From NCBI GenBank assembly GCA_963575745.1, contig CAUYUJ010022522.1, positions 1-64,000 on the forward strand: a stretch of DNA of 64,000 nucleotides, given 5' to 3'. The position numbers and the translations under genes are program-made. Within the stretch, counting starts at the first letter, position 1. Every line of letters starts with the position of its first letter. This DNA comes from Prorocentrum cordatum. Taxonomy: Eukaryota; Sar; Dinophyceae; Prorocentrales; Prorocentraceae. Positions 3,966 through 54,119 of the stretch are shown here, piece by piece. The notes below the pieces were generated by a model. It was given only the letters and a program-made list of their open reading frames with translations, ran no database searches and was not told the origin of the DNA.

Positions 3966-5510
3966 CGACGCGGGGCAACAAGATCTGGTCTAACACCTCA
4001 AGGGATTGGGGAGGGTACAGCACAGGGCAGTAGGGAGGCATAGTATGTCAGAGCCGCTGACTCAACGGTCGGTACTGACTGCTGGCTTGGGCTATCGCGG
4101 CGATTGTCGATCGCATTGGGCTGGAACCACATGCACCGATCCCGACACGGGCTACTGGGACTGCTCTTTCGACGCGACCCCCAAAGATGACACCGACATT
4201 CCGCGCTCAACGACAATTGCAACGGGATATCGGTCGAAGGGAACTTGACCTAATCGAAGGCGTTCGATCTAAACGAACTTGCTTGGGGATCTACTTGCGA
4301 TCGGTGAACCTGGCGATCACTCGAATCCCGTCCAGTTGCTGCAAGGAACGCTTAGTATTTCAAATTACGGATTATCAGAACAACTTCTAAAAGGCATCGA
4401 AGCTTCGATACAGCTGCCCTGGCATGTAAACCAAGCATGGTTCGCCCTGTGCGACAGATTTTGCCGAGACAGAATCGACTGTCGCCTCCGTCTAGGTCGG
4501 GAGCCAGCCACACGACCTTCGCATAGAGCCTGAACACGAATCGATCGTCATCGTCGGAGAGGCCTTCCCTCGCATCAGGCATCGGCGGTATTTCCGAACT
4601 CTGGGTGGTGGTTATCCTGATCCAAACCGCATCCCCGCGCGAACCACTGGGGGGATCCCATTCGCATCGAAATCGTAGCGCATTCCACCTTGATCGGCAT
4701 GGTCGGAGTACCAGCTCCCCCATGGCCGACCAAGCCCTTGAGGCACGCGATGCGGGCTTCCAAATGGGAAAGTCGGATTGATCTCCTTGAATATGGTTGC
4801 GCCCAAAACTGTTCCTTCTTCGCCGTCGTCCATGTAATGCGCCACTCAATAAGAAACAGAGTGGCATGCCACTGCACGGCAGCGCAAGCGTTCTTGTCCG
4901 AATCTTGATGCACATCGGCACTGCTTCGCAAATCGACCACCCGCGCGTGCTGGAGAAACTGCACTCCGTCCGCTCGCCCTTGAGTGCCATCGAAAGTGCC
5001 AAATGATGTCACTTCCAAATTCAACTGCTGGGCCAAATCTTTTGTACGTATTCCGGTATTCATGCCGACGCTGATGTTTGACCCTTGTCACTGCGCCGGC
5101 TCTCGAAATCGGGCAGACGATCAAAGACTCTTGCGCCGCCGAGCCGTGACGACCATGTGGGACTCGAGCTTCTGACACGTAGACGTGATCGAGTGCCTGT
5201 GTAATTCCTGTGTGGCCTCCGCGATCTAGGCATCGTGCTACCATAAGGAACGCTAAACCTCTGACAAGTGGACTTTTCTGGCCACCTGCGAGCCCAGGCC
5301 ACGAACAGGTTCCTGGACATGAGACTAAGGAACGACCCGAAACCCATAGCCCTCCTAAGCCCATGCTGGTCCTCAATTTACCGTCACTATTGTATCTTCA
5401 CCAGTGCGGCTCTTCGGACTGAAGGTGCTCAGCAGCGGCTGCACTACGGCCCCTGCCATATCGAAGGGTGACCGCGCTCGCTGTGCACGTATGTCAGACG
5501 TGGCGCGGGC
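3966..5510. other. no supported gene; possibly decayed coding sequence
   Basis: The composition is more balanced here (less GC, no triplet runs) than in the surroundings. Minus-strand frames between 5376 and 4350 stay open in overlapping pieces (5376-4846, 5063-4575, 5002-4352) as if one ORF had been frameshifted several times, but no fragment matches a family that I recognise. It may be intron sequence of the channel gene or an old dead element. Confidence 0.3.
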
Positions 5511-5517
5511 ACGCCCG

Positions 5518-5567
5518 TCCTGCCTCCCTCCCTCCCTCCCTCCCTCCCTCTCTCTCTCTTTCTCTCT
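5518..5567. repeat. (CCCT)n then (CT)n tract
   Basis: Six to seven CCCT repeats run into CT dinucleotides, about 150 bases upstream of the LINE-like first ORF. It could be part of the element's 5' untranslated region, but nothing else supports that. Confidence 0.85.
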
Positions 5568-6065
5568 AGTCTCGGCTCGAGAGTGCTCTGCACTCAGACC
5601 GCAGCTACGACGCGAAGCGCCCCGCCTCGGAGTCAGACTCCCAGGCCTCGCGAGACCGGAGAGGTCCCAGCAGGACCCTACTGATTCGCGTCACCTCTCC
5701 GCACCAGAGTGCCCGCAGCAATGGCCCCCAAGAAGCCGGAGCGCCGTCACTCTTCAAAGCAGCCTCCGAGCTCCCGTCCCACGCGCCCTGCTGCTGAAGG
5801 GTCCCTCCTTCAACGCAAGCAGGACTGCATCGCAGCGTTCAGGCAAGCGGGGTCTGACCGCCCCACGGCCGCCTATAACGGGCTAGCCGAACTGAACGCG
5901 GACGAGCTCCAGGCAAAGTACGACATGCACAAGTCCAACAGGAAGAAGCTTGGCAGCGCCCTTATCCGCATGTGCGCCGCCAACCAGATCAGCTACACGC
6001 TCGACCACTACCAGCGCAGCAAGCCTAAGCGCACTGGCGGTGACACATCGCACCCACCATCGGGT

Positions 6066-6088
6066 TCCGCACGTCTTCAGGCTGCGGA
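6066..6088 (+). repeat. CTTCAG hairpin 1
   Basis: Outer stem TCCGCA/TGCGGA (6 bp), bulged C at 6072, inner stem GTCT/AGGC (one T-G wobble), loop TC at 6077-6078. It lies in the gag-like ORF, where the core is read in the CTT-CAG phase (RLQAA). Confidence 0.85.
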
Positions 6089-7401
6089 CACCCAATTCAT
6101 GGCCTTGGACCCTGCCTTTTGGAAGGTCCCTGTTCTTGCCGAACCCACCTCGCCTGACGACGGCAAGACGTACAAGCCCAGCATCAGCCTCCACGACTTC
6201 GAGAGTGGCGAACGGCTGCTGCAACACCACCTCGGGCAGGGCAAGCGAGCCACGGGCCAGCTCGCGATAGCTGTCATGGGCCCGAGAAACGACAACTACG
6301 TCGGTACCGAGCTCGCCGTCCCCGTCCTGAAGCGCCACCCCAAGGCGCCCAAAGTGGTCCACACGCACGCCCCCGTGATCGTGTACCAGCTGGGCACCAA
6401 GGAGGTCGCCTGCACGGAAAAGGTAGCCGTCGCCACCATCGACCCTGCCGACCACGTCTGCTGGATTCGGGCGACCATACACGAGACCGAGGCAATTGCC
6501 GCAGTCCCCTCCATGCACCAGGCCTTCGAGGACCAGTTCTCGGGAGGTGCCCCCGTGAACGGTGGTCCACGCGCCAAGGGCCCTTTTCGAGGCGACTCCG
6601 CTCCACTGGACAAGGCGCGCCAAAAGCACAAGGAGTCCAAGAAAGACGCTCGCCGCCAGGGGCTCGATGGCCAGCTCCAGGACACCTTCAAGGCCCTCTT
6701 CCACGGCAACTTTAAAGCCGTCACCATCCTCGAACCCTGCTAAAGCCTAGGCAGGTTTGGATCGGGCGTCGGAAAGAGGTCCCTGGCTGCCACCTTCGGC
6801 GTCAGTCTCCAAGCGGTCGACAAGGTCCTGGCGGGATCAGGGCAACTCGGTGCCACCTACGACCTCCGCAACGTAGGTGCAGACGAGCCCACCGCCGACA
6901 AGTATCAGACCGTGTGGTTCCCTGAGGACCAGCCCATCACGATGGCAGACGCGTTCCAGAAGTCGGTGGAACTCAAGGCCCTGGGAGTCGTCAGGCACGG
7001 CAAGTCAGGCCTGCTGGGGATCCGTGTTCCGCGGGGGTCTGACGTCGCCAAGGCCGCTGCTGTCAGCATCCGCGGCTGCGAGGCCACCCTCGCCAAGACG
7101 CGCTACCGCATCACTGGCATTGCGGCACGCCACGCCACGCTGACCCAGCTCGCCAAGACTCTCACGGGCCCGTCCGTTAAATGGAACTGCGAGGTCTACC
7201 ACACCGCCTGGGACCCAGCCACTGCGGCCCAGTTTGCCTTAGTGCGCGCTCATCGGCCCCCACTCACCTATACGGTGCAGGTCGCGGGGTGCCCCATCCC
7301 GTGGAGCATCACCGAGGCCCCGCTGGCTGAGGTGGCGCCGAAGCGGGACAACGTTACCATCGTCACGCCTACCACCATCACAGAGCCTGCGACGCCGCCA
7401 G

Positions 7402-7432
7402 CCGGTGGTGGCGGCTTCAGCCCCGCCACCGG
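7402..7432 (+). repeat. CTTCAG hairpin 2
   Basis: Outer stem 7402-7411 with 7423-7432, ten pairs with one T-G wobble (CCGGTGGTGG with CCGCCACCGG). Bulged C at 7412, inner stem GGCT/AGCC, loop TC. The core is read in the TTC-AGC phase and gives the peptide GGFSP. Confidence 0.92.
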
Positions 7433-8294
7433 TACACTCCTCACCAAAGCGGCCCAGAGCCCCTACCTCCACGACCTCATGACTGCCACGCCCAAAGGCA
7501 AGGGCGTCGCACCGCTCCTGACCCCCAAGGAGGAGCCTTTAGCCAAGAGCCACCGCTCCTCCAGCGGGAAACGTGACGCCACGCCGCCCGCAAGGCCACC
7601 CCGCGCCCCAGGCCGCAGCTCTTCTGCGCCCCCTCACGGCACGGACGGAGCCGCTGAACCGACGGCCGCCCCAGGACCAGGTGGCCACGACCCCTGGCTT
7701 GGCACGGCGGCGGCGGAAGGAGGGGGCCACACCGAAGGCGCCGCTGCCACAGCCGCCGAAGTACCAGGTGACGTCGTTGACGTCGAGATCCTCTCATCAG
7801 GCGATGAATACAGCGAGGCCTCCCACGAACTAAACACCTTCGGCGAGCGCTTCGCATCGGCCTCCAAACCGCCCGATGCTGCCACGACCCGCATCCAGCA
7901 CATGGAACAGCAGCACGAGCTACTAGCCACCACGGTGGATAACATGCAGATGCAGCTTGCGGGCGTTCTCTCCTCCCAGGCCACACTTACGGAGCACGTT
8001 TCAGGGCTGGAACGGGGGCTTGCCACCGTCGTCACCCAGCAACAGACGGCAACCGCCGACGCCGCTGCGCTGCGCGGCGACATCCAGACCCTCCTCGGGC
8101 ACCTCACGGGAGGCACCATCCACCTGCCACAAGCGGCCACTCTGGAAGCTAAGAAGGAGGAAGCCGCAGCGGCCGCCGAGCCCGCGGCAGCCTGCAGTGC
8201 GACCGACCAGCCAGGCCAGGCCACCCCAGGGACGGGCCCCCCAGGGGCCGACAAAGGCAAGGACAAGGGTCGGGCCACCCAGGAACCCGATTGA

Positions 8295-8594
8295 AGGTGC
8301 CTCAGAGAGCCCGCCTCAGCCCTCCGAGGAAGCGCCTTCAGAGGCATCTATTCCCTCTTCGCGTCGTATCTCTTTCTTGTCACCTCATGTCTGTTTTGGC
8401 AGCAGCACGCGCAAGCTATCTGGTGTAGGGGCACCCGTAGTCTTGCAGGGGGCGTGATTGTAGCAATGTACATGAGCATTCAGGGGTATTTGAGGACGTG
8501 TGCTGCCACGCAGCTTTCGGCTCATCGCTCGCGCCGCCCGCCAGGCCTCGCCATCATGTGTCGCCTTGCCTGCGGCCTGGCCCTCCCCTCGCTG
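8295..8594. other. no supported gene
   Basis: Spacer after the gag-like stop. It includes one CTTCAG at 8336-8341 that does not form the family hairpin. No ORF with recognisable content. Confidence 0.5.
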
Positions 8595-8631
8595 GCTGGA
8601 GCACACCCGTCTTCAGGCGGTGCGCCCCAGC
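8595..8631 (+). repeat. CTTCAG hairpin 3
   Basis: Thirteen outer-stem positions (8595-8607 with 8619-8631) pair except two A-C mismatches. Bulged C at 8608, inner stem GTCT/AGGC, loop TC at 8613-8614. It is outside any ORF that I can support, so coding constraint does not explain it. Confidence 0.92.
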
Positions 8632-8642
8632 ACGGAGGAGAG

Positions 8643-8959
8643 GCTTTCCTGCGACATGCGTAGCGTGGGACGCTCTTCTACCTTTACGATGACAGCATCT
8701 ACAAATACGATCACAGCGCCATTTTGGACCCGATCGTGAACAGCACCGCCGCCGCTGGTCCGTGCGGCACCGGGCTGCTGGGCGCCCCCGCGAGCGCCTG
8801 GCCTGAGCAGCACCAGGGGCCCTGCCCCACGCGCTGCCCCCCTGGGACTTCGACGGCTACTACTATGCCTACGCCGAGTACAAGCACGTCTCCTACGAGC
8901 ACGCCCTCGTCAACTACGACACATGCATCGCAGTCGACCGCCGATTTTGCCGCAGCTGA
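8643..8959 (+). pseudogene. decayed accessory ORF fragment of the LINE-like element
   Basis: One frame reads TLFYLYDDSIYKYDHSAILD after a TAG at 8661-8663. Past the C6 run at 8837-8842 a second frame reads PWDFDGYYYAYAEYK and continues to a TGA at 8957-8959. The Tyr/Asp-rich content in both frames contrasts with the Pro/Arg shadows of other frames and indicates real but frameshifted coding sequence. The family is not recognised. Confidence 0.45.
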
Positions 8960-9039
8960 GCTGACTCCTGCGTCCTCCGGCCACGCCTCACACCGCATGC
9001 AAGTTCAGCTACGAGGGCTACCATCACTCAATACGACGC

Positions 9040-9122
9040 CTGCGGTCGACCGTCGTACAGCATATCCTCGATGGCACCCTGTCTTCAGCTTGTCCTCGAC
9101 CGTCGTGCAGCATATCCTCGAC
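9040..9122 (+). repeat. short tandem duplication, about 54-bp spacing
   Basis: TCGACCGTCGTACAGCATAT followed by CCTCGA recurs about 54 bases later with one change (GTGCAG for GTACAG). A weaker third relative follows the A-rich tract near 9430-9470, where the same frame spells a similar peptide (LPSLNTTPAVDRRT against LPPTTTPAAVRRT). Confidence 0.6.
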
Positions 9123-9142
9123 AGGGCCGCTGGCAAGGCCCA

Positions 9143-9178
9143 GGCACGCAGTGGCGGCTTCAGCCCCGCTGCAGTGCC
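9143..9178 (+). repeat. CTTCAG hairpin 4
   Basis: Stem GCAGTGG/CCGCTGC (one T-G wobble), then a bulged A at 9173, then GGCAC/GTGCC. Bulged C at 9155, inner stem GGCT/AGCC, loop TC at 9160-9161. The central 28 bases are identical to hairpin 5. It ends about 20 bases before the A-rich tract. Confidence 0.92.
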
Positions 9179-9199
9179 ATGGCTGCCACCGCCCCCGCA

Positions 9200-9270
9200 T
9201 GAAAAAAAAAAAAAAAATAAAAAAAAAAAAAATAAAAAAAAAAAAAAAAAAAAATAAAAAAAAAAAAAAG

Positions 9271-9349
<79 letters not shown>

Positions 9350-9386
9350 AACAAAAAAAAACAAAAAAATAAAAAAAACAAAAAAG
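9200..9386 (+). repeat. A-rich insertion 1 (about 187 bp)
   Basis: Almost pure A with isolated T, G and C. Coding-like sequence with related peptides is present on both sides, so it looks inserted into the element and not its terminal tail. It could be a genuine 3' tail if two elements abut here. Confidence 0.7.
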
Positions 9387-10710
9387 CAACGCACGCCGCG
9401 CACGACCACATGCGAGAGTTACCACCGACCACGACGCCTGCCGCCGTACGTCGCACCGTGTACCCTCCAGAGTGTCGAACCCCCACAGCGTGCCGACCTG
9501 ACAGCTTCGACATTACTGACAGCGGTGGGTCGTGCCACGCTGGAAACCACGCCGCTGAGCCAGCGCCGCAGACGGCTCCACCGTGGCCCCCACAGACCAC
9601 AGGCGCCTCGCTGCGAGCCATCTGGCTCCTCGTGCCCTACCTGTGCATCACCGTGGAGCCCAACACGCTATGTGGGCTGCTAATTATGGCCGTGCTTAGC
9701 ACCCACGCACACGGCCTGACTACCAGCAACACAGCGAGTCCCGCTTCCCCTCTGTGCGCCAGGGGTGAACCGGATGAGGACCCCGCCTTCTGGCACATGA
9801 TGAACATCCGAGCACGGCTCATCCCGTGCGCCGCGGCGTGGGCACCAGGCGAGGACCATCAGGACGTTTACTGGGCATGGCTCGAGGACTGCGTCCCGCA
9901 CGTCCTGGCGACGCTCCATCTGCCACAGTACGACCACCTTTTCCAGGAGGACTCCGCGGAGAAAAAACGACGCCCTGCGCCACCGCACCGCGGTCGACAT
10001 GTGCGAGGATATCTGGCACAGAGCGGGCCCCGACAGACAGCGCACCAACCGCAACCTCACTCGTATTCAGGGCAGCCACGAGTACCCCACCCGTTACCTT
10101 GGCCTCCTTCTGGAATACCAGTGCGCTCGTGCCCAGCTCGTCGGCCCTGAGGCTTTCGCGGCACCACTGCCGCCATACCTCTCACGGGCCACGCCTTGCT
10201 GCCAAGAGGCCTCCCTCCGCCCGACCAAGACGCCCTGGCGTATCTCGTGGATGCGATCCCGCACCACCCGCCAGACCTGCAGCCGCTTGTCGAGGCGGAG
10301 CTCGCCGCGGCACCGATGGAACCGCTAAACCTACCACCGCCCGCTGGCCCCCCCGCCCAAAACGCCACGGGTGACCAGCCCGCGGCCGACGCTGAACCGC
10401 TTCTGCTCCAGCACGCAGCTGCCAGCGATATCAGCAACATATCCCTGGACTCGTTCCACGTGTCGGACGATGGCCAGAACGACTCCATCCACGACACGGA
10501 AACCCAGGACCCCGACGGCACGCCACCGCCAAGTGACGCTGCCCAGCGCGACCGTGACAGCGATCCCCACACAGGGCGCTCCCGGTCGCGCAGCAGTGCG
10601 CCCAACAACTCGGCCCAGGCCGACCCCAGCGCACAGCTCAGCGACGCCGAAGGTGCCACCGCCGCCGACGAGCCAGGCAATGCCACCGCACCGCCAGCTC
10701 CCACCAGCCC

Positions 10711-10740
10711 GCGCAGTGGCGGCTTCAGCCCCGCTGCAGC
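10711..10740 (+). repeat. CTTCAG hairpin 5
   Basis: Stem GCAGTGG/CCGCTGC, a bulged A at 10738 as in hairpin 4, then GC/GC. Bulged C at 10720, inner stem GGCT/AGCC. Read as GGFSP in the accessory ORF. Confidence 0.92.
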
Positions 10741-10749
10741 ACTGGCTGG

Positions 10750-10774
10750 ACCTGGGCGTCTTCAGACCTCAGGT
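10750..10774 (+). repeat. CTTCAG hairpin 6
   Basis: Outer stem ACCTGGG/CTCAGGT (7 pairs, one G-T wobble), bulged C at 10757, inner stem GTCT/AGAC, loop TC. It is the only member with a T-A pair at the variable core position. Nine bases separate it from hairpin 5. Confidence 0.88.
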
Positions 10775-11877
10775 GGCAGGGCCCCGTCCCGCACCCTTGT
10801 CCGCCGAGCTAACTCGACTGACTCCAACTCCAGCGCCGTCGACCACTGGCAGGCTGGCCTCGACAACGATCCCATCGAGGACGCGGACCCCGACGCCAGC
10901 GGCTCCCATGAGGCCCCGCACAGCGCAGCGGCCTCTCGACGCTGCGGCTGTCTCATCTGCCTCTTCGTGGCCACGTACGCCATCTTGGTAGCCATGCCGT
11001 ACCAGGACCAGATCGACGGGTACCTGCCGACACCGAGCCGAGACCCCAGCTACCGGCAGCGACGACGCCGTGAAGCTGCGGCACCAGGCCCATCCGTGTC
11101 CACTACGCCCCGACGCACACTAGCATACGACGCCGCGACCGCCCTGTGGGGTCTTCTCAGGTGGACCAGCGCCAAACTCAGGGACACTGTCTCGGGCGGA
11201 GCCAGCGCAGTCGGGTCTGGCCTCTGGGGCGCCCTGAATTGGGCCAGCGGCAAACTCGGAGCTATCGCCACAGGCGGAGTGGTTTGCGGTCTCCTCCTGG
11301 TCGGCGCCAAACTTCTCGCTCAAGGAGCCGTCGGACACGTGGGAGCCCGCATCTGTGCGCGCGTCCTGGACTCACCCACGGCCCAGTGGTGCCTCCGCTG
11401 TTGCCAACCGATCAGGAGCCCGCGCGATGAAGCCCCACACACGCTTCCGCGCACGCATCCCGACGACCCCGAGAGCCAGCACGTGCATCCCCTTCGACAC
11501 CCGCTGCTACAGGAACACTACGCCGCTGCAGTTGCCGCCGCAGTCGCCGATGTCACCACCGCCACCACCGCCGCCATCGTTGAAATCACTGCCGCGGTAT
11601 CGCGAGCCTCGTCTGTCACGCCACGGTCGACCAGCCCGTCCCCGCGAGACGGCCTCACAAGCGGCGCGGCCTCTGGCAACCCGCCGACTCACGAAGCCGC
11701 CGCAGCTCAGGCCACCGACGCCGAGGCAAGTGAAGCACGTGAGCGCACCCTCGACTGCGACGGCGTGCACGGAGCGCCCGACGACGAAGCGGATGCAAGC
11801 AACGCCCGTGGTTCCTCTTCCGACATGGACACCCAACCACCACGACGGCGAGCACGCCACTCATCACCCGCCAGGCC

Positions 11878-11898
11878 CCAGGCGCCTTCAGGCCCTGG
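11878..11898 (+). repeat. CTTCAG hairpin 7
   Basis: Outer stem CCAGG/CCTGG, bulged C at 11883, inner stem GCCT/AGGC, loop TC. Variable core pair C-G. Read in the TCA phase (QAPSGP). Confidence 0.88.
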
Positions 11899-13296
11899 TA
11901 CGCCCCACCCAGCCCTCTGGCCACCGACGCGCAACTTACGCAGCACCATCCAGCGCGACCCAGCGGTCCCCGTGCCGCCGACGAGCATCCTCACCTCCCT
12001 GTACCCGAACGGCTTTGCGCTTGGTAACAGTGGCGTGACTACGGAGGACATCGAAGACGCCCTGCGACTCTACGACCATCCTCGATTCACCCATGACCCA
12101 ACGCTCCAAGCATTGGCGCCGTGGACTGACATCATGCAGAGGCCCCCGAACCGACTCATTTGGGTACTGGAAGACTCGGGCGGGAACTCAGGCGAGACGA
12201 TCTTCCCCTACCTCACGTGGGACCTCCGTGCTCCTACCACTGACACGCCCACGGTCTTCTGGCACGGGACCCGCGGCGACCTTGCGGCCCGTCTTGCTTT
12301 CATCGGAGGTCACCTCCTGCCGGGCCCCCGCCGTGAAGCGAAGGGCCGAACCGCCACAAATGTCGACCGCACGTACGTGGGTGTGCACCCGTCGCTGGCC
12401 GCGTGGTACGCGGTGCCGCCTCACCCGCCCCGCAGCCTCGAAGACGACACCCTCGCCTGGGGACCCTTCGCGCTCTGGATGTGCGAGGCTACCAAACCGC
12501 CGCGCGGTGAGAACTGGCACAACTTCGTGAACGGGGAGGCTCACGGAGCGCGCCTCATCTACCCACGGGCCCTGGGCCTCCTCATCCGCATGGACTGGTG
12601 TGCCCCCGCCGAAGCTGCCTCCAGGTGCCGTGCCCTCCCGCACACCTGTGGCATGGGCGACTGCACGCACGCCCTCCACATTGCCGGCTTCGATCACCCA
12701 GACCTCCGCGAGGCGGCAGAAGCCCGCGACCAGGAGGCAAAGATCTGGCGCCGGCTGGACACCGCGGCAGCGTGGCCACCGCCGCAGGCACTATACTCGC
12801 CAGAGGCAGCGCGAGCATGGGCTACACAGCACTACTACACCGAAGCAGCCACCAGGGCCGACCCCAACCAGCCCCGTCCGCGTGCCTCGCTTCGCAAGCT
12901 CCAGCTGGACCCGCAGCCACTGATCGACCTGGTGTACACTGCCGCGGCCCAGGCTGTACCCGAGCGGTGGCAGTCTGACGTACGAGCGCCGCGCCCCAGC
13001 GGCTCCAGCCCTGGGGCCGCGTCTGGCCCATCGCACACCTCTCAGCCAGGTGCCGCCTCGGGACACAGTCCAGACCGCTCACCGACGGCATCGGGGGCCG
13101 ACGACCGCCGTACGCCGTCCCTTATCAGCGCGGCCGCCGCCCTCGCCCGAGGCCATGCTCGCTCACGGCGCTCCGCCTCACGTTCGTCACGGCAGAGCGG
13201 CGGCAACTCCACCTCTGACAGCAGCGACATCGATACGTGGGAGCACATCGAGACGGAAGAGGAGCCGACCGCCTACCACGTCCTCGCCTTCCACGT

Positions 13297-13356
13297 CCGC
13301 GATGTGCGGTCCCGTGTGAACGCCCCTGGCGTCGAGGTCTGGCTCGACCCAGGCGA
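13297..13356 (+). repeat. 60-bp direct duplication, left copy
   Basis: Begins CCGCGATGTGCGGTCC and ends CGACCCAGGCGA. It is repeated exactly at 13385-13444. The two copies flank a 28-base A-rich segment. Confidence 0.97.
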
Positions 13357-13384
13357 CAAAAAAGAAAAAAAACACAACCACAAA
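13357..13384 (+). repeat. A-rich insertion 2 (28 bp)
   Basis: A-rich with a few C and one G. Together with one copy of the 60-bp duplication it adds 88 bases and shifts the reading frame. Removing 88 bases joins the frame before it to the frame after it. Confidence 0.9.
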
Positions 13385-13444
13385 CCGCGATGTGCGGTCC
13401 CGTGTGAACGCCCCTGGCGTCGAGGTCTGGCTCGACCCAGGCGA
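13385..13444 (+). repeat. 60-bp direct duplication, right copy
   Basis: Exact copy of 13297-13356, immediately after the A-rich insertion. Confidence 0.97.
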
Positions 13445-14145
13445 GCATCACGATGGCGCCTACCTACCGTGGGGGCCGACCGTTGTGGGCCACCGCGTTA
13501 CTGACCCTGGTGTTGCGGGTCGCGATGGCTGGGTCATCCTTCACCACGACCACGGCGACACCACCACCAGGCTCTGGGCACCGACCCAAGTCCACGTCAA
13601 GGCGGACGACACTTGGCGCACGGTCATGATCGCAGCGGACCTGGGGCCCCAGTGGATCGAGCGCCATGCTGACGACGCTCGCCTCCCCGCGGAGGCGGTC
13701 CGCACTACAGGCCAGTCCTGGTTCGCCGACGTCTGGCCTTTGTGGGGTCGACCCCGACCCCACCCAGACGACGCAGTCACCGACGAGCAAGCGTTCCCGC
13801 CCCTACCAGGACGCTGGATTTGCCTACAGTGCCGATTCCAATGCTGCCAGTATTGTGCTGCCCGCCGCAACACGCAGCTCGGCACCTCGGGCCAACCGAC
13901 GTGCCCGGACTGCTCCCTCAGCGGACTGCGTGCACCTATGGACTGGTCCACGGACTACTCTTGCAACAGCTGGACGTGTGTGTACAGCACCGACAACAGG
14001 GACTCCGACACATGCTGCCTCTCCAGCAGATGCCCGCATCCGCCTCGTCCGCACAGCCTGTTCGACGTCCGTGCCACAGTGATGCCTCCGCACATCCTCG
14101 CCCGCCAATACGGCAACGCGCCAGCCCAGCACGACCTCATGGAGC

Positions 14146-14174
14146 CCCCCCGAGCGCCTTCAGGCCCCGGGGGG
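14146..14174 (+). repeat. CTTCAG hairpin 8
   Basis: Nine outer positions (14146-14154 with 14166-14174), paired except one A-C mismatch next to the innermost pair; mainly C6/G6. Bulged C at 14155, inner stem GCCT/AGGC. A bulged A at 14175 is followed by further partial pairing. Read in the TCA phase. Confidence 0.82.
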
Positions 14175-15227
14175 GAGCCTCCGCAACCAGGCCAAGCAGG
14201 ATACCAGGGCCAATGGTATCTACCACCGAGGCCGCGTCGCGTCCCCAAGCAGGGATTGCCCGACGGCACGAGGCGGCCACCAGGGTTCACAGGGACGGGG
14301 ATGCCTGAAGACCCGTCTCCCGACCAACCGCTGTGGAAGGAAGGCTACGTGCTCTTCGGCCCGCACCAGGCCCTCAAGGAGGATTTCATCTTCAACAAAG
14401 CGGTGCGCCGACCTTACTCCCTAGCCATCACCAACATGTACAGGGATCGTGTCACAGTCAGGACCGTCTGCGAGTCTATCGCCGAGCGCATCCACACTAC
14501 CCGCACGCGCTGGCGGGATGTGGTACTGTACTGGGATGCCGAGGGCGGCCCTGGGCCTCAAGCTCTCGACTACGACATGCGCCTCTGTGACGCCATGGTG
14601 AGTCGTGCCACGACCGAAGCCGAGTTGAACCACGACCGCAGCAACCGTGGTAGCTTCTGTCTCTATGGACCAGCGCACCAGCGGGCTGTGAACATCACGG
14701 TGCTCCCCGAGCCGCAGAACATTGACTTCGTGGAGCATGTGCGGCGCTACTCACCTGACGGGGAGACTTACCCAGACCATGCCTTCGAGCACGTCTACCA
14801 GGGCTGGCGGCGGCCCGACGTGCCGCCCATCCTCCCCGACACCCGCCCGCTCTCGAGAGCCGACCAGCAGCGCTACCAGCAGCACCAGCAGCGCACCCAG
14901 CAGCGCGACCAACGCGACGCAGGTCAGCCGAGCACGCCACGCAACCGCTCTCCCGCGCGCGTCCCGACAGGCGACAGCGCGGTGTACGGCGGGGGCGCCG
15001 CCTACCACCGTGGCCCCATTGGTGCCAGGCCCGCGGCGGCAGGGGCAGCCGCCTCCAGCTACGGCCACGTCCCCCACGCCAGGGTGCACCCAGCGGTCGT
15101 CGGCTACCCGCGCGCACTCGGGCAGGCTCCCCCACGGGCCACCTCGCCCGCGCCAGGGTCCACGCGTGCCTGGGGCCATTACCCAGGCCGCCACGACAGC
15201 ACCGCCAGCAACCAGTCCGCAGCGGCA

Positions 15228-15252
15228 CCCCCTGCGGCTTCAGCCCAGGGGG
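15228..15252 (+). repeat. CTTCAG hairpin 9
   Basis: Perfect 7-bp outer stem CCCCCTG/CAGGGGG, bulged C at 15235, inner stem GGCT/AGCC, loop TC. Read as AASA in the Pro/Ala-rich region. Confidence 0.92.
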
Positions 15253-16539
15253 CTGCGCCAAGCCGCGGCAGGACAGGGCGCCCCGCAGGATGGCGCGAGG
15301 CGAACGTGCGCGCCTGGCAACCGCGCCAACACACGCCCCCGCCAAACGTGGCCGCAGCGCAGCGCCCTGCCCAGGCAAAGCCCGCCCCCCCTGAGCGCGA
15401 GCGGCAGCCGCTCGTCCCGCTCGTCCTCACGCACACCCAGGCACACCACAGCGCCTCCCCGCGGCACAGCGAGGGTAGTGCCCACCGCGTCAGCCCCCGG
15501 CCTGACGCCGCCGACCCTGACCAGGCTGCAGCCTCGGCGGCGGGCGGCACAGGCGGCTCCCGCCCGCCTAGCCCAGCACCCAGCGCAGCGCCGATCCGCT
15601 CCCCGAGCAGGGCGGACTCTGCGCGCGCCAACGCCCAGGCGGCCTCGCCACGTGACCGCCACACGGGCGGGCGCGTCCCGCGCAGCCGGCCCAGCAGCCG
15701 CCACCGCTCGCGCAAGCCCCCTGGGAGTTCCACGAGCTCGCCGCCCCGCGAGACTCAGGCTGACGCCCAAGCCCCCGAGGTGGTGCCACGTTTCGGTGCC
15801 GGCGCCAAAGACCCTAACGAGGTCGACCTCGAGCCGACGCCGTCCACGGACCAGGAGCTGCCACCGCCCACCCGCGTCGTCGCCCCCGACGAGGCGCCGA
15901 CCTTCGACCCCTTCAAGCACAAGTACTCCGTCAAGGACCTCGCGGCGGGCTTCGGCGGCGGCTCACCGCTGTCTCCTCAGAGCCACGGCGGCGCCCCCGC
16001 CACCTCTGCCGCTGCCGCGGCAGCGGCGGCCCCGCGTGGAGTCAGCCCTGTCCGCAACGCGAGCCTCACGGCAGCGGGCATGGACGAGGCTCAGCGCCAG
16101 GCCACCGACCGCGCCGCTCGCCACGCCAGCTGGTGGCTGACGCGCTGGCAGGGCGTCCTCCGCCGCAGCCACAGGGCCCACCGCCCGAGGCGAGCGCAGA
16201 GGGCGCACACGAACAAGCTGTTCCAGCTGATGCTGCTCATCACGGCACTGACGGGGCGGGCGCGCCGCCGCAGGACGGACCAGCGGTGTCGCGTGCGCAG
16301 TATTCGCGCGCGCGCTGCGCCGCTGCCGCGCCGCGCTGCCGCCGCTGGTTTGCTTTTGCTCTTGCGCTCGGCAGGATGGATCGAGGAGTCGCCTCCCTCT
16401 CCCCCTGCTGCCGTCTCACCTTTCCTCCCTCCGCCCCCCACGGTACAGGAGTGAGGAGGTTTTTTCGAGGCAGTTTTGCCGATGTTTATGAACCCCCCCC
16501 GGCGCAGCGTCGACCATGCCTTGCCTACACTTTTGGCCC

Positions 16540-16560
16540 GACGGCGGCTTCAGCCCCGTC
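16540..16560 (+). repeat. CTTCAG hairpin 10
   Basis: Outer stem GACGG/CCGTC, bulged C at 16545, inner stem GGCT/AGCC, loop TC. It lies between the endonuclease-ORF start and the endonuclease fold; read as GGFSP. Confidence 0.88.
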
Positions 16561-18328
16561 CAAGCCAATCTGCTGCGACGCCATGAGCTCCTACTGTGGC
16601 CAAGCCTCCTACCTGGGTGACGGCCAGGCCGCCCTCCACCGTGCGGGGCGTGCTAACCCCAGCTCCACCGACGGAGATGGGCCAGGTCGCTCCATCCACC
16701 TCGTCAGCCTCAACATCACGAGTCTTCCAGCGAACTGGCCAACCATTACCGCCCTAGGTGTCGACCACAACGCCGCAGTCATAGCGCTGCAGGAGACCCG
16801 TCATGCCAAGCCTACCAGGCAAGCCATCGCCACCAACGCCGCCAATCCACACCACGGAGGATACCAGGCCAGTCTGGGACCTGACCTGGACCTGGCGCGT
16901 GCCCAGCGCAAAGCTGCTCACGGTGGCACGGACCACACGGTCGAGGGCAACACCGGCGCCTCGGGCGGGGTTGCCATCCTCTCTAAGGACGCCATCGTCG
17001 ACTCCACCGTCGACGACATTGCGACCTGTATCGCCACCCTCAAGGCCAAGAAACGATGGCACGAGGTCTTCCTCCCGCTCTGCACCCAGCACCGCCGCAG
17101 GCGGCGACGAAACAACCACGGTCCCGCTGGGATCTACATTGCGAGCCTCTACGGGGTCGCTGGAGGGGACAGCACCGATATATTTCGGCTTGCTGATTGC
17201 GCCGCCGCGAGGGTCGGCTCAGCCCCGTATTTCATTTGTATGGACGCCAACACGAACATCGACGACAATCCACACCTGCTGCACATGATGCAGCACGGAT
17301 GGTCCAACGTCGCTGAAGGCACACCAGACCACACCATGCACACATATGGCAATATCCCTGACTGGGACCGCGTCACCAAGTGCCCCCGCACTTCGCGCAT
17401 CGACTATGTCATCGCCAACCAAGCTGCGCGATCCCTTGTCACCGACTTCTGCTATCTGCGTGACTTGCCAGCGAAGTCCCATGTTGGCCTGCAGGTCACA
17501 CTCGACCTAAGCCGCCTCGATCACACGGCCCCACGCCTTTTGGCCCCCACGCCATACCCTCCAAACGACGGAGCTCATGAGGACCACGAACTCCAGGCAC
17601 TAGGGACCCACATCGCCGGACGATACCACGACCGCATGGAGCAGGCTGACGCACGCGACGATGTGGAACGCATGTTCGCCCTGGCAAACGAGGCCAGCCA
17701 TGAGTACCATCTCACCCGGCTGCGGGACCTGCCGCCCCCACCGCCAGACCACCCAAAAAAGAAGGCCCCTACCATGCACGGGCTCACACCCACGTTCGAG
17801 GAGCGGCCCGCCGTCCCCCGCGCCTTTCCCACCTACGGAGCTTCCACGATTCACATGAACCACCTTCGCAAGCTCCATCGGCAACTTTGCGAGCTTCGCT
17901 TCATCGGACTGCACCATCATATAGACTGCCGTGCTATCCCGCCGTACCTGGCGCAACGCATCGACTGCACGTGGGCCGCGGCCCGCCTTCTCTGCCACAA
18001 GCCGCGCCCCACGGCCCTCCTGGCTTTTCCTGACGCCTGGACCCCCGACGTGCCAGCGCCACGCGGAGAGCAGCTCGATCGTCTGATCCAAAATCTAGAC
18101 TCGGAGCTGGCGCGACGTGCAAACCGAGCCAAAGCTGAACGCATCAAGATCTGGTCTGAGGGCGTCCGCGAGCCAAGCGGGCGAAAGGCGGCCATATACG
18201 CACGGGCTGCCGACTGCTCGCCCACGGCGTATCTCCGCACGCCTACCACTCCCGACGATGCACAGCTCCACTGCGACATCACCGCCTTCAACCCTGACCA
18301 AGCTAGCACGGACGACAGTGACGCCGAC

Positions 18329-18361
18329 ACCGACGCCGGCGGCTTCAGCCCCGGCGACGGT
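18329..18361 (+). repeat. CTTCAG hairpin 11
   Basis: Outer stem CGCCGG/CCGGCG, an A-A mismatch (18333 with 18357), then ACCG/CGGT. Bulged C at 18340, inner stem GGCT/AGCC. It sits in the acidic linker between the endonuclease and reverse-transcriptase domains; read as GGFSP. Confidence 0.92.
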
Positions 18362-20585
18362 AGCTCGCCCGACACGGACAACGACGACGGCCCCATTCGT
18401 GGCCCACTACCAGCCCAGGTTCCCGACGCCCTCCCCGCCAACGCTATCGTTGCCAACACCAAAGACATGCTCAAGCTCATGGTCGACACCTGGGAGCCCA
18501 TCCTGGGCACGTACCGCGCTCGCGCGGGCCATGACGCCGAAGCTATGCCGACGTGGGCGGACTTCTACGACGAATACCGCCAAGAGCTGCCTACGCCATC
18601 ACCAGCAGCCCCCTTCCACCTTACCGACGACCAACTCATCCACTTCATTCGCACCCGTTCACCGCGCCGCGCGGGGGGACTCGACGGCGTGACGACCAAG
18701 GAGGCAAAGGAGTTACCCGACGACATCCTTCGCCTCTTCGCCAGCGTCTTACGTGCTATGCAACGCACTGGCACCATCCCCGAGCCCCTCCTGCACGTGC
18801 CAAACCCGTGCCTCCGAAAAGGCCGAGGGGAACTCCCGACGGACCAACGGCTTCTCTCGGTTCTTTCCGTGTGGATGTATGCGTGGGAGGCGCCGGCCTA
18901 CCGTAGCCTCACGACCTGGCGGCAAGGATGGACCCATGCCACGAGCTTCGGCGCCGTTCCCAAAGCCACCATTGGGGATGTCAGCACTTCTCTCGCCCTG
19001 CGCATCGAACACGCCAGGACTTTACTCCTCCCCTTAGCTGGAGCAGCCCTTGACCGACAGAAGTGCTTCGACTACCTCATCACGGACATCTGTCTAAACC
19101 TTGCGCTGCACGCGGGGTGCCCACAAGACATCGTTACTGTCCGCCGAAACTTCTACAGACACCACAAACGCTACATCCGCATGAACGGAGCGTACTCCAG
19201 GGACCTGGCCAGGACAAACGGTCACCTCCAGGGCAGCTCGTGGTCCCTGATGACATCAAGCTGCTCATGTGCGTGTGGACAAAGAGGCAGCACCGATACG
19301 TTCCTCGATCACTCAGCACTACCTTCGTTGACGACAGCAACTCCACTACCCACACCGCTCCTGAGCTGCAGAAATCTCTCGACGAAACCGCCAAGTTTGA
19401 CCGATTCTCCGGTCAACGCATTCACCCTGGTAAAGTGGCAGGGTGGGCGCTCACCGATGAGCTGCACGCCGCCGTCACCCAGCTCACACTGGCGGATCGC
19501 CCCCTCCGAGTGGTCGATTCCTTCAAGCTCGTCGGGAGTTACATCAACGCCGAGGCAGCGCCGGCTCCAGCCGCGCTTAACCTCACGGCCACTGCAGACG
19601 CCCGTGTGCGGAGGGCGACTATCCGCCTGCCGCGCATTGGCAAGCTCCCGTCGCCGATGCTTATCAAGGCGCGGCACGCCCGATCCCTGGCCGCCAGCGT
19701 CTGCACCACGGGCACCGACATCCAAGCACCATCAGGCCCAGCCAAGACTGCCTACAACCACGCCCTCAAGGCGGCTATCCGCCCCAAGGGGAACAAGTGG
19801 GTCGAGTTCTGGACTCTCATGGCCGTGTGCGTGCCGGGACACGCCCTTGAGATCGACGCCATCACGCAGCGTGAAGCATTCCTGTGCCTGCGGCGTCAGG
19901 TTAACCGCGACGTCACACTCTGCGGGCTCGCCAGAGACCTCCAACACCACGTCCAGACCCTGTTTGGTGGAGGACCCGTCGGGCGACTCGTCCAGTCGCT
20001 CCAGCAGCTCCGATGGACCTGGCCCACATTTGGCATCATGTACGATGACTGGGGCTGCCCGATCAGCTGGCTGAATCTACCCCAAAACGCCTTCCTGCAC
20101 ATGCTGCGGGCCTCACAACGCAGGGCATTTCTGCGGAAGATCAAGCCACGGCGACACGACCTTGGCTACCTCGCCTCGGTCAGACAGGGCCTTGACCTCT
20201 TCGCCAGCACGTGGCTCGCGCGAACCAAAGGAGCAGCCAAATGCACTGCCTGGCAGCTGGCGCTCCTCCTGAACTACCTGTCGGGCGGGGACCACACCCA
20301 ACAGCGACGATCCCGATCCAACACGTCGGCAGACCCCAGCCCCATGTGCCGCTACTGCGACGAGGAAGAGGAAACTCAGGAGCACACTGTCCGCGACTGT
20401 AAGTGCTGGGCCCGAGAAAGAGTTCCTCTCACCACCCTCATCAGTGACGACCAGTGGGCCCGTCTTCCGCCGCACACAAGACACTGCGTGCTCTTCGACG
20501 AAGACCCAGCCCCCCTCGACCTGCAGGCCGACCTCGCGAGGGACCCGCTGCCACAGCCCATCCCGCGGCCCCCCCCTGAGGGGGA

Positions 20586-20606
20586 TCCTGCGGCTTCAGC
20601 CCAGGA
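20586..20606 (+). repeat. CTTCAG hairpin 12
   Basis: Outer stem TCCTG/CAGGA, bulged C at 20591, inner stem GGCT/AGCC, loop TC. A separate C/G hairpin (CCCCCTGAGGGGG) abuts it on the left. It lies in the linker between the CCHC knuckle and RNase H; read as AASA. Confidence 0.88.
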
Positions 20607-21713
20607 CACCTACACCACCTACCTTGACAACGACACTGGATGGACATGGGTCTATGCTGCCACGGACGGTGCGTGCACCAACCAAGCCATCCCACTCCTA
20701 GCACGAGCGGGCAACGGCGTCTACTACGGCATCGACCACCGCATGAACTACAGTGCACGCGTTCACGGCCTAACGCAGAACGCCCAGGTTGCGGAGACCC
20801 TTGCCATCGTCCACCTTACGGCGTGTGCCGAACGGCCCGTGCACTTCTTCGTAGACAACCAGGCGGTGGTCGATGGGTTCCAAAGCATCATCGACGGACA
20901 TCCAGCGCCGCAGGGCACGCACGCGGAGCTCTGGGCAATGATTCACCGATGTGTCATGGCCAAGCCCGACATGTTTCGCGTCGAAAAAATCGCCAGCCAC
21001 CTGGGAGACCTGGGCATCGACCTTGGGCTCATCGGGCCCATCGCGGAGGAGTTCAACCGTCAGGCCGACGCCCTTGCCACAGCGGCGGCACGCACGCACA
21101 ACCTCTCCGACGACATCGTTGAAGCTGCCAAACCACGACATCGCCAAGCGACCGTGCTCCACGGGGTCGCTGTCGCCATCTACGAGCGCAGACACCGTAC
21201 TCTGCCGCTCCCACACCGCAGGGCTGGGTTTACAGCGGCTGAACTCAGCAAAATGGAACCGAACCCCCTGCTGTCGGACCAGGCACTACCCGCGGCTGGA
21301 CCAGACATCCCGCAGAACCCGGACGAGCTCTGGGCCGAGGCCCAACGTGCGATGTACGACGAACAGGAGGACGACCCGTTCGGCTTCGGCGGGGGACTAG
21401 ACTTCCTGGACGACGGGCCAGCCAGCGCCAACCATGCCCCGTCGGGCATCCGCACGATGCCCACCTCGACTCTGCCACCGAGAGCGGCACCGCACCCACA
21501 TGATGACGTCGCTCACCTCCTAGACGCCGACGAGGACTTTTATGATCCCCTCGGATTGGGTGGCAGCATAGACGACGTCCCGCCGACACCCCACGCTGCC
21601 GACGATGCCGCTTCATCGAGTCGCCACCCGGTCACGCGGCCGACCTCTGAGCCCTCGCACGGCATCATGATTGGCCCCTCCGTGCCACCCACCCCGTCCC
21701 CCCACCAGCGCCA

Positions 21714-21747
21714 GCCCGCGGGGGCGGCTTCAGCCCCCCCGCAGGGC
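21714..21747 (+). repeat. CTTCAG hairpin 13
   Basis: Outer stem GCGGGGG/CCCCCGC, a bulged A at 21743 (same place as in hairpins 4 and 5), then GCCC/GGGC. Bulged C at 21725, inner stem GGCT/AGCC. Read in the TCA phase. Confidence 0.93.
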
Positions 21748-21836
21748 ACTGAGCCAGTCAGACCGTCGCGCCCCGTCCACGCTCCTACTGTTGCAGGCTG
21801 CGAGGCTGCGGCTCCTCCGCCCTCATGGGGCGTTGC

Positions 21837-21857
21837 CCCAGCGGCTTCAGCCCTGGG
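21837..21857 (+). repeat. CTTCAG hairpin 14
   Basis: Outer stem CCCAG/CTGGG, bulged C at 21842, inner stem GGCT/AGCC, loop TC. A second small hairpin, GGGGC-GTT-GCCCC, overlaps its left edge (21827-21839). Confidence 0.88.
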
Positions 21858-21904
21858 ACCGCGCGACACCCTCCAGTCGCCTCGCCACGGGCCGACGGCC
21901 GCCA

Positions 21905-22020
21905 TAAAACAATAATTATAAGAAAACCGCACGGACCGCGGCGCACCGCGCTGGTCCCACCACCTTCCAAAACAAACAAACAAAAAATAATACCAGTAAA
22001 AAAATTGAAAAAATCAAAAC
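21905..22020 (+). repeat. A-rich insertion 3 (two A-rich blocks)
   Basis: Two A-rich blocks (about 21905-21928 and 21969-22020) separated by about 40 GC-rich bases. They carry the stop that ends the RNase H frame. A coherent frame in the same phase resumes at 22021. Confidence 0.65.
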
Positions 22021-22332
22021 CAAGGCGCAAGCCCGAATGACCTCGTCCCCGCCGCGAGGCCCGCCGCCGCGGGCACAGAGCAGCCGCCCCGCACCGACCG
22101 CGAAGCCGAGCTGTCCCAGTCTACGGCCGCTCTCCAGCAGAGGTGCGCAGCTCTCGCCGCCGACCTTGCCGCTGCCCAAGCCCGTCAAGGCCCTTTGCTC
22201 CAGCGCCTCCACCGCGCCGGTCGTGCCCTCGCCGAGCTGCTTACACCCCCGCCCGATGGTGCTGCGCCGCCACTCACCCTCCATGCTATGCTGTCATCGC
22301 TCCGCGGCGCTCCGCCTGGAGCCCCGCGCTAA
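22021..22332 (+). pseudogene. coiled-coil C-terminal fragment of the LINE-like polyprotein
   Basis: In the same phase as the reverse transcriptase/RNase H frame, 22021 to the TAA at 22330-22332 encodes NQGASPNDLVPAARP and then an Ala/Leu/Gln heptad-like stretch (STAALQQRCAALAADLAAAQ, then LHRAGRALAELL). It is probably the real C-terminus of the ORF, cut off by A-rich insertion 3, but it could be the start of a different unit. Confidence 0.45.
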
Positions 22333-22694
22333 CCTCCGCCATTCTGCCTGCCCGCGTGCACGCGTGGCCCCGCGTCCACGGTGTCAGGGCGTGGGGGCGG
22401 GGGGTGCCCCGTCCCTGCGCGCCGCGCTGCGGCCAAGCGCCCAACTGGCGGTCTGCCAAGCCGCCTAGCCACGTGTCCGCACGTCGCCTTTCTTGTTGGG
22501 GCCTTCTTCGTCGCGCGGTCTGACACGTGAGATCTTCACAGTCTGTCCGCCGTCCGTAGCTTCAGACGCAATGCGCCGGGGGAGGGGGTCTGTTGCCCGC
22601 CCTCGTATCTTAAGGCTGCACCGCCGCTAATAGTGTTTTGCGGGTTGTCGCACCGCAGTGCGCCTCGCGGACGGACCCTGGTTCGCCTACTTGT

Positions 22695-40444: not shown

Positions 40445-40969
40445 TCACACGTTCGATTGTTGGAGAAGAAAAACGACCGCAAGCAAGACACTTTTGAGCC
40501 ACAACGGCTACATACGGGAAGCCCCAGTCGCCCAAGCTCCCTGAGAGGGGGCGGTCGCAGAGGACCTCGATGAGGGGGGATCGTTCTGGCGGTGCTGCGT
40601 CGCCCAAGACCCCCGCAGACAAGCTGAGTGAAAACACGTTGGCCCACTTTCTGAACTTTATTCCTGGGCGGGCGGCCCGGGCACTTCTAATGGCGAAATC
40701 GGCGAGGGAACCTTTGTCCCTACCAGTGGTTGCAAGCGGAAGGCCTGCATGAGTCAACGCGTCTACGCCGAGAGGGTCGCACTGTATTGACAAACGAACG
40801 CGCGGCCACTCACTGCAAATCGATGGCGCCACATGGCCACTCAGAATCAGACAACTCGGACTCCGCCTCGTCACCAGTGGTCGGGTTGCCAGTGGACTCA
40901 GCGCCATCCTGGGGGTAGGAGGGGCGCCCCCCCCCCCTCGTGAGTCCCCTCCCTGCTCGTCCTACTCAT

Positions 40970-53809: not shown

Positions 53810-54119
53810 GTCAAGTTGGGCGACAGGATATTGGGCTGTCTCGAAGAAACCAGCGTGGGGCTATAAGAGGCCGAATAGTTTGGGCCAAAACGGTTACGGA
53901 CGGGTGGACAACCTCACCGAAAACCTCCAACCCCGCCGTAAACAGAAACGGCCCACACCCCCCTAAGCCCAGTCGATACAGAAAACGCTCCCCACCCACC
54001 CACCCCAACAACGACCCTAATCGGCATCGATTCCACTGTTCTTGGGATTGGGGGGGAGTGGGGGGGGGTCGTGTGGTGTTTTTGTTTTCGGCGAGGTTGT
54101 AGGTCATTGCTTGAAGGGA

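Follow-up and report, generated by a model that had tools for sequence, protein, structure and literature searches.

Introduction

RNA viruses can carry multiple dispersed packaging signals with a common motif, which in MS2 is an (x)xYA loop together with an A in a 5' bulge, as set out in PMC6281560. Among long interspersed nuclear elements (LINEs), the ORF2 region between the endonuclease (EN) and reverse transcriptase (RT) of zebrafish L2 (ZfL2) binds the stem-loop of the 3' tail, the stem generally and the loop specifically, according to PMC4176376; with this binding, the reading of such a hairpin by a LINE protein has a precedent. Dispersed RNA recognition hairpins are known as a kind. Here we describe 16 of them within a LINE-like element, a location that is new to us, in a 64,000-nucleotide stretch of the dinoflagellate Prorocentrum cordatum (contig CAUYUJ010022522.1, positions 1 to 64,000; 'the window' below means this whole stretch). 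All 16 lie on the plus strand, spanning 6.06-21.87 kb, and each has at its apex a 5' bulged C, a 3-bp stem GNC/GN'C and a UYCA loop (14 UUCA, 2 UCCA). They may be copies of a single recognition site along the RNA of the element. An earlier model-made reading of the sequence (the first-pass annotation) had listed 14.

The hairpins resemble MS2 packaging signals but are not members of that class. The loop fits xxYA in 16/16 copies, the bulge is on the 5' side and many scattered copies have a small common motif; however, the bulged base is C in 16/16, where the MS2 motif has A, and the carrier is a LINE rather than a capsid virus, with no coat protein match (no capsid-type Pfam match at E 0.01 in eight element frames). 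Stringent-type LINEs also have an RNA stem-loop, but there it is in the 3' tail, whereas the 16 found here are spread over 15.8 kb and 14 of them lie in open frames. As in dispersed packaging or assembly signals in general, there are multiple copies with a common motif, in this case 16 with covarying stems. The MS2 hairpin has 2 bp between bulge and loop, compared with an inner stem of 3 bp here.

The iron-responsive element (IRE) likewise has a fixed bulged C and loop on variable stems, but 5 bp separate its bulge from a CAGUGN hexaloop, against 3 bp and UYCA here. The histone 3' stem-loop has a Y-rich tetraloop and the same CUU...CAG flavour; unlike the hairpins described here it is bulge-free, with a conserved stem of six bp and a UUUC-type loop. 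There were no Rfam matches at the gathering score in the window, the IRE and histone stem-loop included. Mobile palindromic elements of genes or organelles, such as the Rickettsia palindromic elements and the mitochondrial palindromes of Volvox (PMC2670323), likewise consist of short palindromes dispersed within genes and between them. Such elements carry common sequence along the whole repeat, whereas here only the apex is common and the stems differ but pair (2 of 120 copy pairs are alike upstream). The first-pass annotation knew of no description of this family; in agreement with this, no Rfam family reached the gathering score, and among the papers listed in searches of open-licence PubMed Central none describes repeated hairpins within a LINE, as judged by title and start of abstract. 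Hairpin, stem-loop and non-LTR (long terminal repeat) are absent from the main text of a dinoflagellate genomics review (PMC11453091).

A hairpin family with a fixed apex

Both strands of the 64 kb were scanned with the loop left free, i.e. for a C bulge, G-N-C, any four bases and G-N'-C with N:N' paired, on a stem with at least three of four and at least five of six outer positions paired. Of the 18 hairpins returned, 16 form the family, all on the plus strand of the element, and two lie elsewhere with unrelated loops. The 14 cores of the first-pass annotation (CGNCTTCAGN'C) are all where it had placed them, on the plus strand with none on the minus strand, and their variable core pairs are as it had counted them (G/C 9, T/G 2, T/A 1, C/G 2). 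The total nevertheless rises to 16 with members 13000 and 19562 (members are named by the first base of the core), both of which have a TCCA loop. The apex is drawn more aptly with a UYCA tetraloop closed by 3 bp, as in the computed folds, than with a loop of 2 nt above 4 bp. The members are:

Hairpin 1: 6058..6096, plus strand, core 6072-6082, N:N' pair T.G, folding z-score -5.2
Hairpin 2: 7398..7436, plus strand, core 7412, 11-bp uninterrupted outer stem, folding z-score -5.3
Hairpin 3: 8594..8632, plus strand, core 8608, T.G, no long open reading frame (ORF) assigned
Hairpin 4: 9141..9179, plus strand, core 9155, stem shared with hairpin 5, outside any assigned ORF, followed closely by a poly(A) tract
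Hairpin 5: 10706..10744, plus strand, core 10720
Hairpin 6: 10743..10781, plus strand, core 10757, T-A, 25 bits in the covariance model (weakest), folding z-score -1.1
Hairpin 7: 11869..11907, plus strand, core 11883, C-G
Hairpin 8: 12986..13024, plus strand, core 13000, loop TCCA, new to the earlier list
Hairpin 9: 14141..14179, plus strand, core 14155, C-G, A.C mismatch at second outer position
Hairpin 10: 15221..15259, plus strand, core 15235
Hairpin 11: 16531..16569, plus strand, core 16545, upstream of the ATG at 16583 of the EN-RT frame
Hairpin 12: 18326..18364, plus strand, core 18340, between EN and RT regions
Hairpin 13: 19548..19586, plus strand, core 19562, loop TCCA, new to the earlier list
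Hairpin 14: 20577..20615, plus strand, core 20591, between Cys-rich motif and RNase H
Hairpin 15: 21711..21749, plus strand, core 21725
Hairpin 16: 21828..21866, plus strand, core 21842

Over 39 bases the 16 members form a gapless alignment. In 14/16 the outer stem is uninterrupted for 5-11 bp; that of 8608 runs for 4 bp to an A.C at the fifth position, and that of 14155 for 1 bp to an A.C at the second position, followed by 8 further pairs. The claim of an outer stem of 5-13 positions that pairs in every case therefore mostly holds, 'every case' being slightly too strong for these two. Folding indicates that below the outer stem most members pair further past a mismatch, bulge or small internal loop, the interruption being one unpaired 3'-side base in five of them (6072, 9155, 10720, 15235 and 21725).

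A looser scan left the single 5' bulge base and the four loop bases free and required 3 bp between them and an outer stem of at least 5 bp without interruption, a rule outside which 8608 and 14155 fall with their interrupted stems. The plus strand of 5359-21912 contained 17 such hairpins, 14 of them combining a bulged C with TYCA; this combination was found in none of the 15 on the minus strand of the same interval and none of the 63 in the rest of the window, one of which has a TYCA loop on a different bulge base. With any bulge base allowed, no TYCA hairpin with a bulge other than C occurs on the plus strand of the element. CTTCAG words checked outside the region had been said to fold differently, and this is borne out: 14 of the 16 plus-strand words in 5701-22335 are members, while the other 2 and the 16 elsewhere lack the architecture. 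The complement word CTGAAG is not enriched (4 in 5701-22335, 8 elsewhere).

Outer stems pair and covary

The shuffle test set beforehand was passed by a wide margin. In 100 dinucleotide shuffles of the window, core matches averaged 1.01 (largest 5) against 14 observed; in local dinucleotide shuffles of the stretch 5701-22335 (500-base blocks, 1000 times), core plus stem occurred 0.003 times on average (largest 1) against 16. Every one of the 16 matches to the core consensus CGNCTYCAGNC in 5701-22335 possesses the stem. Chance and low complexity are rejected by these window and local shuffles.

The stems are conserved as pairs among the 16 paralogous copies. Over outer positions 1-7, 99 of 112 cells are paired, compared with 56.7 +/- 5.1 when the 3' arms are swapped (largest 79 in 20000 swaps), and 91.9% of 160 cells are paired in the 10-pair structure. 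The covariation score of this structure is 0.731, against 0.151 +/- 0.036 for shuffled versions (0/500 as high) and at most 0.190 for slid versions. Its invariant pairs, G-C and C-G, flank the N:N' pair and belong to the fixed apex. The 16 members score 25.1-41.4 bits with a covariance model (R1), and nothing else in the window exceeds 15.3; the model was built from the same 16 rows, which match it by construction, and the gap measures separation rather than discovery. The first-pass annotation's reading of a selected structure, with a fixed loop and bulge on compensating stems, is supported by these results.

There are 14 distinct 5-base arms among the 16 copies. At least 7 upstream bases are in common in 2 of 120 copy pairs (chance 0.0015): 9155/10720, with 8, which was the one duplicate stem reported before, and 13000/21842, with 7, which makes it not the only one. 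Since the stems mostly differ among paralogues, their pairing does not come from common stem ancestry except in these two cases. Pairing extends beyond the outer stem, with arm positions 8-14 pairing better than swapped arms (0/20000) and positions 8-17 likewise (P 5e-5); the difference is marginal for 11-20 (P 0.08), and 13-25 and 21-35 are no better than swapped (P 0.33 and 0.75). This fading beyond about position 14 delimits a structured unit of ~37-40 nt. The folding energy clearly beats shuffles in 11/16 hairpins (at most 2/200 as good). Among 96 stem cells there are 6 G.T and 2 A.C, an excess that weakly favours the plus strand as RNA.

Reading frame and spacing

Fourteen copies lie in open frames, in Pro/Ala/Ser/Gly/Asp-rich, low-complexity stretches that look linker-like by eye. 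Two of their cores start at codon position 1 (6072 and 10757, encoding RLQ), eight at position 2 (11883, 14155, 15235, 16545, 19562, 20591, 21725 and 21842, encoding AASA, APSG or APA) and four at position 3 (7412, 10720, 13000 and 18340, encoding GFSP or GSSP). Because all three codon positions are used, the core is not a peptide motif, as had been claimed from the outset, and both a protease site (RLQ/A) and GFSP or AASA linkers are ruled out.

Successive cores are 1340, 1196, 547, 1565, 37, 1126, 1117, 1155, 1080, 1310, 1795, 1222, 1029, 1134 and 117 bases apart. When neighbours less than 150 apart are merged, 14 points remain with a mean spacing of 1204 and a coefficient of variation (CV) of 0.24; 0 of 200000 uniform placements are as even (P 0.001 allowing a 500-bp exclusion). 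Unmerged, the CV is 0.45 (P 0.0008). The spacing, in steps of ~1.2 kb, is suggestive of regular placement.

Relatives and the hairpin at 20591

Protein searches, each of which scored only the 8000 candidates richest in common words, gave 12 relatives (P0001-P0012). The EN-RT protein query returned none of its 8000 scored candidates, the RNase H part one of 8000 and profile A1 12 of 8000, the same one included. The site of hairpin 20591 is spanned by seven of the 12 (P0001, P0002, P0004, P0005, P0006, P0007 and P0010); P0003 begins just after it, P0008 and P0012 begin later, and P0009 and P0011 either stop short of it or are no longer aligned there. In all seven spanning relatives 4-5 residues of the hairpin-encoded EGDPAASAQ are missing, even in P0002, which is 82% identical; P0010 (48%) is poorly aligned at the site. 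Since the encoded residues are absent from 7/7, copy 20591 is probably a gain of about 12-15 nt, judged at the protein level only from one filled site against seven apparently empty ones. A gain of 12 nt would mean that older sequence supplied part of each arm and altered to match, whereas with 15 nt one arm could have arrived along with the core.

Peptides that the core could encode are not above shuffles in the 12 relatives, the best being P0008 (6 vs 2.8, P 0.06). No relative was found in viral contigs by protein searches or in genome contigs, and none in the plasmid DNA comparison or among PDB sequences. A scan of viral contigs with a 15-base core returned 115 stretches, with one match each in the 80 listed, which is about chance level by a rough estimate.

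The carrier element

The hairpins are carried by what is most likely a broken LINE, with the following parts:

5721..8291, plus strand: ORF1-like region with one stop (6741-6743), predicted to be coiled-coil-like near its C end
10151..16451, plus strand: long ORF2-like region of no family, with one frame before and another after a 60-bp duplication
16583..21912, plus strand: EN - RT-like - Cys-rich - RNase H region, open frame changing near 19.25 kb
22099..22302, plus strand: C-terminal segment of the EN-RT protein, with homology to P0008 and P0012

The last hairpin lies upstream of this C-terminal coding segment. An APE-type endonuclease is recognised by PF03372 (Exo_endo_phos; E 1.8e-6, 28.3 bits, cut-off 24.5), and RNase H, an optional domain in LINEs, by PF00075 at E 9.2e-5 and 23.1 bits in the window, below the cut-off of 25.8, and at 26.8 bits, above it, in relative P0002. 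No Pfam RVT match was found even at E 5 in two window pieces; relative P0004 has a weak zf-RVT match (17.6 bits, cut-off 27.5). The RT label is thus a provisional one, given by eye from an FVDD-like motif, the domain order and the relatives. The carrier's endonuclease and RNase H matches, together with RNase H and weak zf-RVT in relatives, agree with the LINE-like element first proposed, the RT part being unrecognised by Pfam. In Pfam the ORF1-like region has only a below-cut-off Flagellin_N match, and its product is a candidate hairpin-binding protein. The ORF2-like region includes a Cys-rich stretch at about 13.8-14.05 kb.

Several features along the carrier may be insertions. A 184-base interrupted poly(A) tract at 9202-9385 follows closely on hairpin 9155 and could be a tail-only insertion or belong to a separate element as its 3' tail; hairpins lie on both sides of it, and 5.6-9.4 kb and 9.4-22.3 kb may or may not be one element. 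At the frame change of the ORF2-like region, a perfect 60-base duplication (13297-13356 and 13385-13444) surrounds 28 A-rich bases; the arrangement resembles the target-site duplication that a tail-only retrotransposon insertion would leave. The A-rich sequence at 21913-22098, with a stop right after 21912, lies between the RNase H region and the C-terminal segment and is possibly another insertion. Within the ORF2-like region, 12240-12740 (FWHGTRGDLAARLAFIGGHLLPG...) recalls ADP-ribosyltransferase-type folds by eye and has no Pfam match.

Other features of the window

G+C content by 2-kb block is 55-71%. Spliced-leader-like sequences are found on the minus strand at 53879-53899 (4 mismatches in 21) and 40493-40513 (5 in 21), matched against the dinoflagellate spliced leader consensus; they lie 70 and 49 bases upstream of minus-strand ORFs beginning at 53809 and 40444 and are possible relics of retroposed mRNAs. 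Part of a minus-strand ORF at 57578-58996 (SRSLRIGGATAMY...GRWASDSFHGYLWE) resembles, by eye only, the C-terminal half of a tyrosine recombinase. The ORFs at 34698-35714 (minus strand) and 59664-61856 (plus strand) have long near-identical peptide stretches in common (SNRIAMACASLSFGGSSLDNLAPWSASAADFPTCKTVA...), and a gene or element seems to have been duplicated within the window. For comparison, PMC10666404 gives a G+C content of 59.7% for P. cordatum.

Discussion

A fixed bulge and loop on a stem that is free in sequence yet paired lead us to infer strongly that the hairpins are recognised by a protein; its identity and the function served are put forward as a proposal. We give a probability of about 50% to the reading in which the 16 hairpins are one cis-acting RNA recognition site, repeated along a long LINE-type transcript and most likely read by the element's own protein. 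Such a protein would read the bulge and loop on single-stranded sense RNA, the stem being merely a scaffold, and would most likely be the element's own RNA-binding protein (ORF1-like or the RT protein). Sense RNA is favoured by the use of one strand, the confinement to one element within the window and the slight G.T excess. By analogy with the dispersed packaging signals of RNA phages and viruses, fairly even sites could label the RNA as 'self' and assist in its coating or condensation into a ribonucleoprotein (RNP). New sites might come about through small in-frame gains in stretches that encode linkers, where the protein would be under weak constraint. The element's own protein is the most economical reader, and marking or compacting a long RNA the most economical use. 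A bolder form, which we think somewhat less likely than not, is an element-long RNA address code of ~1 hairpin per 1.2 kb, gained and compensated in linkers, through which the element's own protein packages the long LINE RNA in a virus-like manner.

Other readers and other origins have to be set against this. A host factor could read the hairpins on RNA in the service of export, processing, silencing or a pause in translation at domain boundaries; the stems, covariation and shuffles are equally compatible with it, as is the location of the 14 open-frame copies in linker-like stretches, but the rest of the window is without such a hairpin, so that a general host signal is not seen here, and a pausing signal would need no fixed bulge and loop. 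We regard a host reader as unlikely. We think it slightly less probable that the hairpins are micro-mobile or selfish, a short core having been copied into new places while the element was reverse transcribed, in some cases together with its stem, and retained only where harmless. The apparent gain of about 12-15 nt at 20591, the two copy pairs with 7-8 upstream bases in common (chance 0.0015) and the linker location, judged by eye, all fit such copying. The stems of the other copies, however, differ yet pair to about 14 positions, and simple copying gives no new matched stems. Nor, by reasoning, would simple fold-back copying leave the C unpaired each time, since the bulged C would itself be copied; as a sole cause fold-back copying is rejected by this reasoning alone.

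A site in single-stranded or cruciform DNA (an integration intermediate, replication or recombination), like attC or REP-type (repetitive extragenic palindromic) folded sites, should be able to form the same fold, and all copies are on one strand. We consider it improbable, in that the copies are dispersed within coding regions rather than at the element ends, no recombinase match was found by Pfam in eight element frames, and G.T exceeds A.C, weakly, by 6 to 2. The surroundings are GC-rich and repetitive, as chance, low complexity, a coding repeat or an assembly artefact would have it, but 16 copies against 0.003 expected, the use of three codon positions, the differing and covarying stems and the lack of copies elsewhere in the window make such an origin scarcely credible.

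Several observations weigh against a recognition site read by the element's own protein. The binding partner is a putative one, and an AlphaFold model of the ORF1 piece 6786-7379, made without an alignment, had a mean pLDDT (predicted local distance difference test) of 35 and was not used. The copy is broken by frame changes and a stop and is not itself a working element. Conservation as pairs is seen among paralogous copies, and the 20591 site, being absent from the relatives, gives no conserved position. By the weaker measure of two-sided changes, seen in 8/10 pairs, 23 of 500 shuffles do equally well. In five of the 16 hairpins more than 1% of shuffles fold equally well (of 200: 8608, 3; 10720, 6; 10757, 32; 11883, 6; 21842, 13). 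The argument for RNA over DNA from the strand comes down to 6 versus 2 cells, two of the six G.T being in the near-duplicates 9155/10720. Finally, the rule merging neighbours less than 150 apart was picked after the data were seen, and the regular spacing may mirror the alternation of domains and linkers alone.

To our knowledge, how LINE proteins choose their own RNA is an open question, especially for elements without a known 3' hairpin. If the address-code reading is true, we know of no earlier dispersed packaging-signal system in a LINE. The recognition site, once confirmed, would join LINE RNP assembly to the packaging-signal logic of RNA viruses. The 16 natural variants within one element directly suggest a recognition code, in the form of fixed and free positions, that is testable with short RNAs. 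The hairpins offer a possible new tag for RNA work, and a sensitive marker with which to find and date large elements in dinoflagellate genomes.

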